From positions 1-36,436 of the forward strand of contig JACPFG010000063.1 of NCBI GenBank assembly GCA_016183125.1: DNA of 36,436 nt, written 5' to 3'. Position numbers and translations under genes: made by a program. Below, piece by piece: positions 2,898 to 8,823 of this stretch (positions are counted from its first letter, which is position 1; each line of letters opens with the position of its first letter). This DNA comes from Deltaproteobacteria bacterium. Its GTDB lineage: Bacteria; UBA10199; GCA-002796325; JACPFF01. The notes under the pieces are model-generated. The model did not search any database. It worked only from the letters and a program-made list of their open reading frames with translations, and had not been told where the DNA came from.

Positions 2898-3057
2898 CGT
2901 AATTGTCCTTTCCACGGCGAGGAAATAGCATTCCAAACACCAGGCGCAATGATTAAAAAAATCTTGCGCGAAGCAGGTCCCTCGGCTACAGCACGCCCCA
3001 AGGGGACGGAAAGTCGGCATCGTTGGCGCGGCGATTACGCCGTGTAAGAGCCACTGG

Positions 3058-4206
3058 GTGGAGCGGACGTACTACGGCCTCTCCCAGATGGCCGTGCGCG
3101 ATTGCCTGCGCGATGCGGCGATAGGAATCAAGGACGTGGATGCCGTCGTCTACGGGATCTATAACGACATCTTCGAGATGGCCGCCATCCCGGAACACCC
3201 GCTCCAAGGGATCATCGGGATGACGAACAAGCCCGGCATTCGCGTCACAAACGGCGGCGCAACAGGTGCTTATGCCATGCACTGCGCGTATGCGTGGGTG
3301 GCGAGCGGCCTCTACGACACGGTGATGGTCTTGGGCGTCGAGCGGGCAACCGACTGCTTCGACTTCGAGTCGATGACCGAGACACCGGAAGTGATCAAGA
3401 CGATCGGTTGGTCGGGCGATACCTTCTTCGAGCGGGAGCTCGGCTGGACGGCGTCGGACAGCTATGCCGAGGTGGTCCTCGCCTACATGGACGATCATCC
3501 GGAGGATCTCAAACCCGAAATATCCGCCAAGATCAGCGAGATTCTCTGCCAACAGGCGAAGCACAATCCGTTCGCCCAGCGCCGCGACGAGGTGGTCACC
3601 GCCGAGATGGCGATGAACTCCCGGTACGTTGTCTATCCCTTTAAACTCCTCGAGATGTGCGTCTATTCGGAAGGTGCCGGGGCACTGATCTTTGCCTCGG
3701 AGGAGAAGGCCAAGGCCATTGCGCGGAACAACGGCAAGGCCCCCATCTGGATCGCGGGTGTGGGTGCCAGCAATGAGCATAGCGTCGCCGGGCCGGATTA
3801 CACGCGCCACAAGTATATGGGACGGATCTGGTCGGATCATATCGCGGCTGAGAAGGCCTACGCAATGGCCGGGATCACAAAGCCGGTGCAAGAGATCCAG
3901 GTCGTGGAGCTGCACGACGCGTTTATCAAGCAATTACAGATCACGATGGGGGAGATGGGATTCGTCCCGATCGGGCGGACCGATGCCCTCGTGGAAGAGG
4001 GGATCATGACGCCGGGCGGGAAGGTGCTCGTGAATCCATCGGGGGGACTCACGTTCGGCGGACATTTTGTTGGCGGGTCGAACATCTTTTCGACCTGGAG
4101 CGCGCGGCGCGAGATGCTCGAGCGTGGATTTGCGCGCGGGTTGATCCACGGGACCGGCTCAACGGTATCCCAGTACGGCGTGGTGTTTGTTTTGGAGCGG
4201 AGCTAA
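3058..4206 (+). CDS. thiolase-superfamily protein (SCPx/Ltp2-like), lacking the usual nucleophilic Cys
   Basis: NGGATGAYAMHCAYAWVASGLYDTVMVLGVE, VVELHDAF, LVNPSGGLTFGGH; family-like frame extends upstream to about 3007 (RKVGIVGAAITPCKSHWVERT) without a canonical start. Confidence 0.85.
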   Translation: MERTYYGLSQMAVRDCLRDAAIGIKDVDAVVYGIYNDIFEMAAIPEHPLQGIIGMTNKPGIRVTNGGATGAYAMHCAYAWVASGLYDTVMVLGVERATDCFDFESMTETPEVIKTIGWSGDTFFERELGWTASDSYAEVVLAYMDDHPEDLKPEISAKISEILCQQAKHNPFAQRRDEVVTAEMAMNSRYVVYPFKLLEMCVYSEGAGALIFASEEKAKAIARNNGKAPIWIAGVGASNEHSVAGPDYTRHKYMGRIWSDHIAAEKAYAMAGITKPVQEIQVVELHDAFIKQLQITMGEMGFVPIGRTDALVEEGIMTPGGKVLVNPSGGLTFGGHFVGGSNIFSTWSARREMLERGFARGLIHGTGSTVSQYGVVFVLERS

Positions 4207-4208
4207 CT

Positions 4209-5207
4209 ATGGCAGGGGAGAAGGTTCAAAAAGTGATTCCGGAGCATATGATTCCGCCGGTGGCCTCGGAGATCGTCGAGCGGGGGGGCGAGCGCTACCT
4301 CCAATCGAACGAGGCGATGTTTACATTTTACAAGCGGACGAAGGGGGAGTTCTCGAAATATTTTCTGGGCCTGCGCGATGAGATGAAAATCTGGGGTGTG
4401 CGCTGCCCCAAATGCGGGATCGTCCGCGTCCCGCCGTTTCAGCTCATGTGCCCCGATTGCGACTTTTGCGACCTCAAATGGGTGGAGATGCCGCACACCG
4501 GCGTGATGAACTCCACGCCGCCGATCACGTATTTTGCCCACTCGCTCTTTCAGTCGTGGGTCCCGTTCGGGCGGGGTCGGGTCGTCCTGGAGGGCGCCGG
4601 CACCGCGCTCCCGGTACATGTCTTTACGACGAAGGGCGTGCTCACCCCGTTTATCTTCAAGAAAGGGACGCCGGTGAAGGTGGTGTTCCGCACCGAACGG
4701 TTCGGCAAACCGACCGACATTTTCGCCGTGCCGCTCGCCGAGTTGAGCGAGGCGCAAAAAAAGAAATCACCATTGATGGAAACCGACCTCGATTTTTCCG
4801 CTCCGGTCGAGCCGAAGGTTGGCGCGGCGACAGGAGCGGCAAAAGCGAGCTATGCAAAGGCGCTCGATCTGCTGAAGGAACTGGCGGTCGGCGTGACAAA
4901 GAGCCCCCGCGCGCAGCACAACCTCGCCGGTTGGACCCGCCGGATTGCCGTTCGGACAAGCAGCGGCGATTTCGGCCTTGTCATAGCCGAGGGCCGGCTG
5001 TCCGTAACGGATAAGACGCCGACCGGCACACCGGACCTCGTCATGGTCGCCGACGATCCGCAACTCTTCGTGGACTGGCTCACGTTCAAAGAGGCCCTCA
5101 CCAACGCCATCATCGCCGGCAAACTTTGGATCAGCCTGAACCGCGAATTCACCACCATCTTCAAACTCGACCGCCTCCCCCGCTCCGTCGCACGGGATCG
5201 GGGATAG
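4209..5207 (+). CDS. DUF35 Zn-ribbon/OB-fold protein fused to a C-terminal SCP2 sterol-carrier-like domain
   Basis: CPKC...CPDC Zn ribbon, OB-fold-like region; C-terminal FGLVIAEGRLSV...DLVMVADDPQLFVDWL...AGKLWISLNREFTTIFKLDRL typical of SCP2. Confidence 0.8.
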   Translation: MAGEKVQKVIPEHMIPPVASEIVERGGERYLQSNEAMFTFYKRTKGEFSKYFLGLRDEMKIWGVRCPKCGIVRVPPFQLMCPDCDFCDLKWVEMPHTGVMNSTPPITYFAHSLFQSWVPFGRGRVVLEGAGTALPVHVFTTKGVLTPFIFKKGTPVKVVFRTERFGKPTDIFAVPLAELSEAQKKKSPLMETDLDFSAPVEPKVGAATGAAKASYAKALDLLKELAVGVTKSPRAQHNLAGWTRRIAVRTSSGDFGLVIAEGRLSVTDKTPTGTPDLVMVADDPQLFVDWLTFKEALTNAIIAGKLWISLNREFTTIFKLDRLPRSVARDRG

Positions 5208-5266
5208 TGCCCGCTGTTTCTTTTCAGTTGTTTGCCAACGCTTTTCTATGGTAGAAAATACGCGGT

Positions 5267-5677
5267 ATGGTTGGTGGAGCGCTGAAAAAGGCGACACAGC
5301 AATGGATCCGTCATAGCGAAGCGGATTTCGGTACCGCACAGTTTTTATTGCGGGCACGGAAATATCTGTATGTCGGGTTCATGTGTCAGCAGGCCGTGGA
5401 AAAACTGCTGAAGGCGGTCATTTGTCAGGAAATGGACGTGACACCGCCGCGCACGCATAACCTGATTGCATTGGGCGATTTGATTGATGCGCGCATGAAC
5501 GACCACCAACGGGGCATCATGACGGCGTTAACCGAGTATTACCTGAATAATCGGTATCCGGAGGTGAAGGTCGCGCTTGCCAGACGATTGACGGGCCCGG
5601 TGGCGCGCCAGGTCCTGCAGGGCACGGAGGCAATCATCCAATGGCTGCGCGAGCAATACCGGATACCGAGCAGGTGA
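5267..5677 (+). CDS. HEPN-domain protein
   Basis: WIRHSEADFGTAQFLLRARKYLYVGFMCQQAVEKLLKAVICQ...PRTHNLIALGDL. Confidence 0.85.
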   Translation: MVGGALKKATQQWIRHSEADFGTAQFLLRARKYLYVGFMCQQAVEKLLKAVICQEMDVTPPRTHNLIALGDLIDARMNDHQRGIMTALTEYYLNNRYPEVKVALARRLTGPVARQVLQGTEAIIQWLREQYRIPSR

Positions 5678-6003
5678 TCCGCACATTTGTGCGGCGCCTC
5701 AATCGCGTCTTCCCACTGGAGGCGGTGTTCCTTTACGGGAGCCACGCGCGAGGGTGGCAGGATGCATGGAGCGACATCGACCTGGCGGTTGTGTCCAGGC
5801 GCTTTGACCGGGCTTCCCGTGCAACGTGGGAAGCGGTTCGTCGTATTGCTCACGCGATCTCGCCCATATTGGATGCCCGTCCCTTCGGTGCCCGGGAATT
5901 TGCGCGTTACGAGCGCGGCGATTTTGTCCACGAGATTCACCGGACCGGCAAACAGATCTACCGTAACGGTCGTTTTGCGGTCGCTGGGGCGCGCGGATAT
6001 TGA
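5641..6003 (+). CDS. MNT-type nucleotidyltransferase-domain antitoxin partner of HEPN
   Basis: FLYGSHARGWQDAWSDIDLAVVS (GSxxxG..SDIDL); overlaps the HEPN gene. Confidence 0.85.
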   Translation: MAARAIPDTEQVIRTFVRRLNRVFPLEAVFLYGSHARGWQDAWSDIDLAVVSRRFDRASRATWEAVRRIAHAISPILDARPFGAREFARYERGDFVHEIHRTGKQIYRNGRFAVAGARGY

Positions 6004-6059
6004 CCACGATCTTCGTGCTCGACCGGCTGCCTCGTTCTGTTGCGCGTGATCGGAAGTAG
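6003..6059 (+). pseudogene. 3'-terminal remnant of a second DUF35-SCP2 paralog
   Basis: Translates TTIFVLDRLPRSVARDRK*; 16/18 residues identical to the C-terminus of 4209..5207 (TTIFKLDRLPRSVARDRG*), with 9 synonymous codon differences. Confidence 0.8.
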
Positions 6060-6069
6060 GGGTAAACAT

Positions 6070-6864
6070 ATGCCAAAGGTTCAGACAACGACGGGGATCA
6101 ACATCTACTATGAGCAGGAGGGCGCGGGGAAGGACGTGATCTGCATTGCGGGCCTGTCGGCGGACCATACAACATGGTCTCCGGTCCTTCCCCAACTGGC
6201 CTCGTAGTGCCGCATGTTGATTTTTGATAACCGAGGCGTAGGCCAGACAGAGGCCCCTCCAACACCCAATACGATTCGGGTGATGGCCGATGACACCATC
6301 GCTCTTATGGATGCCTTGGACATTGAGCGGACCACTCTCGTAGGGCATTCAATGGGCGGAGCCATTGCGCTGCAGATGTCTCTGATTGCACCCGATCGGA
6401 TATCGCAAACGGTCATTTGCGCGTCCGCCGCCAGGCTACCGTATCCATCCGTCGCCGTCATAAAGGTTGCCGTAAAATATCGAGAGATGGACCTCGATCC
6501 AACACTCATTTTCGAGACGACCTTTCCGTGGATTTACGGCGAGGCATTTTTACGAGACGAAGCCAGGGTGAGAACTCAGATGGATCAATTACTACAAAAC
6601 CCATATCCACAGTCGCTCGACCATTTTCGCGGGCAAGTGGCTGCATGCGAGTCGTTCGATTTGGAGCGAGCGATCAGCGAAGTCAGAACGGATACGCTCG
6701 TGGTTGCAGGCAATGAAGATGTCCTTACGCCGCTTCGATGCTCGGAATATCTCCATCAGAACATTGCTGGTTCCCGGTTGGTCGTGATGAACAACTGCGG
6801 ACATATGATCCAACACGAACAGCCTTCAAAACTGGCCGAGACCATTCTCACCTTTCTCCACTAA
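6070..6864 (+). pseudogene. alpha/beta hydrolase with an in-frame TAG at 6205-6207
   Basis: MPKVQTTTGINIYYEQEGAGKDVICIAGLSADHTTWSPVLPQLAS-TAG-CRMLIFDNRGVGQTE...LVGHSMGGAIALQ...NCGHMIQHEQP; both halves in the same frame. Confidence 0.85.
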
Positions 6865-6949: not shown

Positions 6950-7192
6950 ATGGCCCATCGCACCCAGTTGTATCTCGACGACAGCCAGTATCAATTCGTG
7001 AAGGACCTGGCGCGGGCGGAGCGGAAATCGATCGCCCAGCTCTTCCGCGAATGGATTGAAGAGCGCCGGCATTTGCGCGCACAAAAACGCTACGAGAAGG
7101 ACCCATTTTGGCAAATGCGCGGCATTGGAGCAAGCGGACGATCGGATATTGCCAAGCATTTTGACGATTACCTCTACGGGGACAAACGATAA
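6950..7192 (+). CDS. ribbon-helix-helix antitoxin
   Basis: MAHRTQLYLDDSQYQFVKDLARAERKSIAQLFREWIEERR...; SD GGAGG upstream; typical DIAKHFDDYLYG tail. Confidence 0.75.
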   Translation: MAHRTQLYLDDSQYQFVKDLARAERKSIAQLFREWIEERRHLRAQKRYEKDPFWQMRGIGASGRSDIAKHFDDYLYGDKR

Positions 7193-7194
7193 CC

Positions 7195-7538
7195 GTGCAG
7201 CAAGTTTTCCTCTTGAACGATATCTTCGAGCGGAACAACCGTTGCTGTTGACGACCCATCTCATCTTTGCCGAAGCGAATTCCCTGATTACAAAACGGTT
7301 GGGCAAATCCGTAGGGGAGCGCACGGGGGACCTGTTGCAGCGCAGCGATTTTGTGCAGTTGGTCTTTCTTGACGAGGTTGTCCATCGTGAGGCATGGAAT
7401 CTGTACAAAAAATATCGGGACAAAGACTTTGACTACATTGATGCCACGAGCTTCGTTTTTTGCAAACGCCGCGGGATCCGCGAGGTCCTCACCTTTGACC
7501 GCCACTTCGCCCAAATGGGTTTTCGGATCGTGCCCTAG
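7195..7538 (+). pseudogene. PIN-domain (VapC-like) toxin lacking its N-terminal motif
   Basis: Frame ...RAASFPLERYLRAEQPLLLTTHLIFAEANSLITKRLG...FDYIDATSFVFCKRRGIREVLTFDRHFAQMGFRIVP; the usual xFVDTSAW segment is absent. Confidence 0.65.
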
Positions 7539-7577
7539 CACCTGGTACCTGGCACCGAATGATAATGCGGTGTAATG

Positions 7578-8723: not shown

Positions 8724-8754
8724 AACTCCATTTTACATAGTAATATGGAGTTAT
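8722..8754. promoter_or_regulatory. 10-bp-arm inverted repeat over the ATPase start codon, plus an extra half site at 8756-8762
   Basis: ATAACTCCAT (8722-8731) / ATGGAGTTAT (8745-8754), then AACTCCA (8756-8762). Confidence 0.6.
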
Positions 8755-8823
8755 CAACTCCAAAATACATAACCATCCCAAACCGGTTGCAAAACGATGA
8801 GGCGTCGGTTAGGTTCCCCGGCC

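Follow-up and report, generated by a model that had tools for sequence, protein, structure and literature searches.

A duplicated gene tail behind a HEPN/MNT module as a probable scar of tail-duplicating insertion

In contig JACPFG010000063.1 of a deltaproteobacterial metagenome-assembled genome (MAG; GCA_016183125.1), all 36,436 nucleotides of which are here called the window, a 57-nt segment directly behind a HEPN/MNT gene pair repeats the end of a DUF35-SCP2 gene that lies intact in front of it. How did a second copy of a gene's last codons come to lie on the far side of a putative toxin-antitoxin (TA) module? A sequence-only reading had taken the segment for the relic of an old paralog once under selection, and proposed that the HEPN/MNT pair had inserted into a tandem paralog or that a deletion had removed most of it. 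The features concerned are the following.

3010..4206, + strand, thiolase-like gene (Pfam Thiolase_C_1/Thiolase_N), of a probably horizontally acquired type
4209..5207, + strand, DUF35 zinc-ribbon/SCP2 fusion of 332 aa, intact host gene (Pfam zf-ChsH2, SCP2)
5151..5207, + strand, intact 3' tail of DUF35-SCP2, repeat copy 1
5267..5677, + strand, HEPN gene, presumed toxin (Pfam PF05168, E=7.6e-21)
5641..6003, + strand, MNT nucleotidyltransferase gene, presumed antitoxin (Pfam Polbeta, NTP_transf_2)
6003..6059, + strand, duplicated or displaced DUF35-SCP2 tail, repeat copy 2 (the relic; nucleotide homology over 5999-6059)
6070..6864, + strand, alpha/beta hydrolase gene (Pfam Abhydrolase_1), native to the order

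The relic encodes TTIFVLDRLPRSVARDRK and the intact tail TTIFKLDRLPRSVARDRG, each followed by a stop codon, and re-reading both segments confirmed that they agree at 16 of 18 residues. With BLOSUM62 the relic scores 75 against the intact tail and at most 29 elsewhere tested in the window; in the whole 1.77-Mb genome its peptide finds two places only, itself (3.7e-7) and the intact copy (1.6e-5). Self-blastn of the region pairs 5147-5201 with 5999-6053 (E=1e-5). The repeat is not a matter of chance, and its homology ends abruptly on both sides, the flanks sharing 14/60 and 15/60 identities. At 74-76% nucleotide identity the two copies are more divergent than most of the other tail pairs described below. 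Eleven of their 15 differences over 57 nt fall at codon position 3 (binomial P=0.0018 versus a random spread), nine codons differing synonymously, as the sequence-only reading had counted, and two non-synonymously; the dN/dS check that it had proposed for this segment gave dS ~1.8 and dN ~0.12 (NG86). Thus, the tail copy is genuine, long diverged, and was coding while it diverged; the former full-length tandem paralog is the part of the claim that did not stand, for reasons given below.

The stop codon of MNT (TGA, 6001-6003) overlaps the first base of the relic, as previously noted. The window MNT continues for 13 residues beyond "IY", whereas its homologs end 1-5 residues after it, which argues that the junction clipped the 3' end of MNT and that the native stop was lost. 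We rejected the relic as the C-terminus of the MNT family, an alternative that the sequence-only reading had named, since it lies in a different frame and MNT homologs end earlier. An upstream extension of the relic through a frameshift (GRFAVAGARGY versus GKLWISLNREF) was likewise unconvincing, with a mean profile score of 4.8 (three frames were tried, and ~0.6% of random peptides reach a score of 6). No further thiolase or DUF35 fragments were found in the window.

HEPN and MNT overlap at 5641-5677, and the adjacency of a HEPN-domain and a minimal nucleotidyltransferase gene makes the pair a putative HEPN/MNT TA module, type VII-like. MNT matches Polbeta (PF18765, E=1e-9) and NTP_transf_2 (PF01909, E=1.4e-7), and contains the GS...DxD active site (GSHARGWQDAWSDID, in 5641-6003); against NCBIfam MntA_antitoxin it reaches 37.6 bits (E=1.5e-9) for an equivalog cut-off of 60, and so is not filed as MntA proper. 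As to the catalytic RX4-6H motif of the PF05168-type HEPN, only R-x3-H is visible by eye. The zf-ChsH2 and SCP2 matches of the host gene are weak, below the curated cut-offs. The gene shares 58-74% identity with single-copy homologs from eight MAGs that are deltaproteobacterial, acidobacterial or unclassified (73% for L004), and its family is absent from 45 other searched genomes of the window's class. Together with the thiolase it is of a type that occurs in MAGs of deltaproteobacteria and acidobacteria, and the two were probably acquired horizontally, as judged from this distribution. Searches of viral contigs found no relatives of DUF35-SCP2 or HEPN, those of plasmids no MNT relative and one distant partial match to DUF35, and those of the PDB no DUF35-SCP2 relative.

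The neighbourhood shows several further particularities. The conserved N-terminus of the thiolase lacks an ATG, GTG or TTG start (window 3000-3060): L004, with a thiolase 85% identical, starts MKKVGIVGAGITPCKS and the window reads RGRKVGIVGAAITPCKS, so the start codon may have been removed by a junction or a small deletion. In several families of the class, mnmA-rnc-era is preceded by a thiolase/DUF35 operon (L153 of G001, L124 of G021, L125 of G016, and the window); the thiolases are only distantly related, and repeated replacement at one locus is possible. The hydrolase, 47-48% identical over its length to that of a genome of the same order (G002, L078), carries an in-frame TAG at 6205-6207 and is otherwise complete, with homology to G002 running across the TAG; its Shine-Dalgarno-like AGGGG (6058-6062) shares bases with the stop codon of the relic. 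Further downstream (6953-7540), a ribbon-helix-helix antitoxin-like gene precedes a PIN-like frame with a seemingly missing or frameshifted N-terminus; together they probably represent a VapBC-type pair in decay.

Tail copies of this kind recur beside other MNT genes. We collected 40 loci around MNT homologs regardless of repeats, several from the same genomes, and analysed 39, omitting the internally repetitive L191; the DUF35 loci that prompted the idea were excluded from the tail statistic. A 3'-tail copy accompanies 9 of 53 genes with an MNT within 1.3 kb downstream versus 1 of 123 other genes (Fisher p=9e-5), the nine representing eight independent loci because the L176 repeat counts twice, in two opposite frames. 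About a fifth of the other sampled HEPN/MNT-family sites carry such a scar. The sole "other" gene, guaA, has its tail copies around a ParE-type TA pair and then HEPN/MNT. Gene 5' heads show no significant enrichment near MNT (2/38 versus 1/126, p=0.13); direct repeats around MNT are common, and those in real genes are nearly always 3' tails. The duplicated tails belong to these genes.

L161, PBP4B-like serine hydrolase, 73 nt, 100% identical
L168, FliR/SctT
L182, TruA
L183, ThiG, two extra copies
L192, GuaA, two extra copies around the ParE-type pair and HEPN/MNT
L195, UbiD-family gene, 141 nt, 96% identical
L159, DcrB-like gene
L176, 621-aa ORF

Every tail copy is downstream of its intact gene, and all repeats end between -18 and +19 nt from the stop, with the single exception of L183 (+84). 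Outside the window 57 of 98 tail differences are at third positions, and several copies carry indels or many non-synonymous changes. The inserts measure 0.5-1.4 kb (up to 2.8 kb for the guaA stack) and hold TA-sized ORFs, among which no recombinase or integrase gene is evident from ORF content; by inspection, the junctions of different host genes share no motif or constant attachment core. Direct repeats that do not correspond to gene tails, at L157, L175, L185, L188 and L189, were not counted. At L189 a 210-nt direct repeat (3849-4058 and 4999-5208, 92%), not an obvious gene tail, flanks HEPN/MNT. At L177 HEPN/MNT lies within a 139-nt direct repeat (4046-4184 and 4997-5135, 89%) that takes in the last part of a 526-aa ORF together with 73 nt behind it.

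The same arrangement is found behind DUF35 genes within the window's class. Four family-f5 genomes of the same class carry a native DUF35, not orthologous to DUF35-SCP2, followed by TA modules and by their own tail copies, which span 29-109 nt and lie after HEPN/MNT or AbiE modules.

G007 (L115): DUF35, MNT/HEPN, tail, RelBE, tail; near tail 95-109 nt, 83-86%; far tail 92 nt, 98.9%
G014 (L116): DUF35, MNT, tail; 33-34 nt, 97%
G019 (L117): DUF35, MNT/HEPN, tail, RelBE; 43 nt, 97.7%
G024 (L118): DUF35, AbiEi/AbiEii, tail, RelBE, MNT/HEPN; 29 nt, 96.6%

RelB and RelE of G007, G019 and G024 are orthologous (70-84% identical), whereas the cassette between DUF35 and RelBE differs, being one of two HEPN/MNT pairs only 35-36% identical to each other, or AbiE, with tail copies of different lengths. 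Orthologous RelBE genes beside differing cassettes, each with its own tail copy, point to independent insertions at one point, and three such insertions at the same spot would be the simplest reading. Each f5 relic is closest to the tail of its own genome, indicating for these loci a local or intraspecific origin, by local copying or from close-kin donors. In G007 the copies lie at +737 and +1376 from the DUF35 stop, and the farther one (98.9%, versus 86% for the nearer) is seemingly younger, which conflicts with a simple first-in-furthest-out order; gene conversion or re-insertion may account for this. No duplicated tail was found in G029, G003, G004, G021, G040, G043 or G031, all of which have no recognised TA module directly behind DUF35, as judged by an MNT-motif scan and ORF listing; G040 has only a tandem DUF35 paralog of 37% identity. 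G017 (L123) and G016 (L125) carry MNT behind DUF35 and no tail copy. Overall, the region 3' of thiolase-DUF35 is a recurrent TA site in the class (G007, G014, G019, G024, G017, G016), occupied by HEPN/MNT in both orientations, MNT-HEPN, AbiE and RelBE. In L118 the AbiEi gene start occurs twice as a 48-nt direct repeat (6702-6749 and 8740-8787, 97.9%), the second time between RelBE and MNT; this may be the 5'-end equivalent of a tail duplication.

The window thus exemplifies an architecture that recurs at HEPN/MNT and other TA modules, and we consider it probable, at roughly three chances in four, that the relic is a copy of the DUF35-SCP2 3' tail displaced by insertion of HEPN/MNT exactly at the gene end. 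The insertion would be self-restoring and tail-duplicating: the upstream gene would keep or receive a complete 3' end, the module would come to lie right behind the DUF35-SCP2 stop codon, and a second, partial tail would remain beyond it, abutting the former downstream DNA, in the window that of the alpha/beta hydrolase. Afterwards, the tail copy would have no required function. As in insertion with long target duplication, the modules are flanked by direct repeats of host sequence, which are long and vary between insertions (29-270 nt among the listed cases). DUF35-SCP2, the target, is single-copy in other genomes, and the f5 cassettes differ between relatives at the same position; the genomes compared include draft assemblies and yielded no empty-site genome closely related to that of the window. 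The features of the inserts fit either long-target-duplication insertion or homology-anchored integration. We infer the latter as the most likely molecular route: incoming DNA composed of a gene tail and the module would recombine with the resident tail on one side and be joined illegitimately inside the resident tail on the other. The third-position lean of the tail differences, strong in the window, suggests that part of the divergence predates the insertion. Simple local copying and drift would not yield two tails that had diverged as functional sequences beforehand, and this leaves some room for an older second homolog.

Such a homolog is what the principal alternative supposes: a thiolase/DUF35-SCP2 paralog in tandem, or else a xenolog that had earlier resided just upstream of the hydrolase, would have been reduced to its last 57 nt by HEPN/MNT insertion and deletion. 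The mainly synonymous divergence is what two separately maintained genes would show, the relic abuts the hydrolase ribosome-binding site as an operon partner might, and the neighbourhood, with a thiolase start codon gone and a TAG in the hydrolase, is decaying. Nevertheless, tandem copies sought in homologous loci were never found: exactly one full-length DUF35-SCP2 is present in each of 15 genomes (the window's own, the eight MAGs named above, and six GTDB genomes), none of the others being a close relative of the window's genome. As far as genomes with the gene could be found, this is the outcome that the sequence-only reading had itself named as counting against it. The absence of the family from the 45 class relatives speaks against a former resident as well. 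Single copies throughout, no thiolase remnant in the window, and tail-only scars beside HEPN/MNT at about a dozen loci with differing host genes leave the tandem paralog unsupported; repeated deletion of paralogs at so many unrelated genes is implausible, while tail-duplicating insertion explains all these scars by one process. We therefore regard a lost paralog as unlikely, retaining from the sequence-only reading the tie between the relic and a HEPN/MNT insertion.

A different question is whether a recombinase acting in trans used the gene 3' end as an attachment site, as in guaA- or rlmH-targeted elements. This concerns the route only, tail-duplicating insertion being common to both accounts. 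Specificity for 3' ends, restoration of the host gene, and cassettes stacked with a tail between them (G007, G024 and the guaA locus) would agree with it, and guaA is a known 3'-end integration gene. However, the target genes differ and have no motif in common, the 5' boundaries share no sequence, the repeats vary widely in length and the inserts hold no evident recombinase, all of which disfavours a dedicated site-specific enzyme; we rank this route below homology-anchored integration and think it rather improbable. Two further accounts seem very doubtful. The 19-codon frame from TTG 6000 could be a functional micro-peptide or a translational-coupling device mimicking the DUF35-SCP2 C-terminal tail, in line with its open frame, its conserved residues, the TTGA overlap with the MNT stop and the adjacent Shine-Dalgarno-like sequence of the hydrolase; yet other tail copies are explained as scars with no coding role, and several bear indels or many non-synonymous changes. 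Least probable of all is an assembly chimera. The source is a MAG of 142 contigs with 2.45% contamination, but native genes flank the junction on both sides (besides the hydrolase, PEPCK has its best match, 71%, in the same-family genome G001 and was found in none of the other searched class members, and the best matches of Era come from the order and class of the window's genome), which makes a chimeric contig unlikely; furthermore, non-identical tails do not allow a k-mer mis-join, and the layout recurs in many independent assemblies.

The tail scar hints at a route by which chromosomal TA modules could spread in the absence of transposases, a matter not yet settled. A more general proposal, which we put forward tentatively and hold to be somewhat less likely than its opposite, is that TA pairs (HEPN/MNT, RelBE, AbiE) move as integrase-less cassettes entering the 3' ends of conserved genes, each duplicated tail keeping the host gene whole and offering the following cassette a docking site; TA cassettes would then pile up with host-gene tails between them. 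Tail duplication would explain how TA modules enter conserved genes harmlessly. The scar, a downstream copy of a host-gene tail ending at the stop, is diagnostic, and would allow insertions, the order in which they happened and the genes they hit to be read off any genome. Annotators should bear in mind that a short C-terminal "paralog relic" next to a TA module may not be a decayed gene but the scar of an insertion.

No description of gene-tail duplication at TA modules was found in the literature searched, the coverage of which is incomplete; several known systems nevertheless offer partial parallels. Integrative elements using gene 3' ends, such as the guaA-, rlmH/SCC- and mnmE-type islands, share the 3'-end target, the restored host gene, direct tail repeats and tandem accretion. 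Unlike them, the inserts described here carry no recombinase gene, are 0.5-1.4 kb in size, enter many target genes and have no constant core. The p-dif modules of Acinetobacter plasmids, in which XerC/D sites flank TA pairs, are likewise small TA cassettes bounded by short repeats, but their boundaries are dedicated recombination sites and not host-gene tails. Recent HEPN-MNT insertions were recognised from presence/absence pairs in Deinococcus and Thermus (Makarova et al. 2009; PMC2701414), similarly indicating a module mobile between close relatives; direct repeats or gene-tail duplication are not mentioned there ("direct repeat" occurs 0 times). In Microcystis a ParDE-like pair directly behind an orthocaspase gene is also fenced by direct repeats, two of 152 bp; in contrast to the tails reported here, that repeat starts 14 bp past the stop, contains inverted repeats and is not a coding tail (PMC7935541).

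A close likeness is to restriction-modification systems, which insert with long target duplication (Nobusato et al. 2000; Furuta et al. 2010; both cited through PMC1643837, PMC3031569 and PMC3874152), the repeats being "in the order of 100 bp" (PMC3874152). In the 2013 review among these, which treats both restriction-modification and TA classes, long target duplication is mentioned for the former only. An addictive two-gene module, no transposase, and long, variable direct repeats of host sequence are common to both cases. Here, however, the modules are HEPN/MNT, RelBE/ParE-type and AbiE TA pairs, what is duplicated is the upstream gene's 3' tail, and a single site can hold a stack of cassettes. 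The tail scars thus link TA modules to a mode of insertion so far described for restriction-modification systems.
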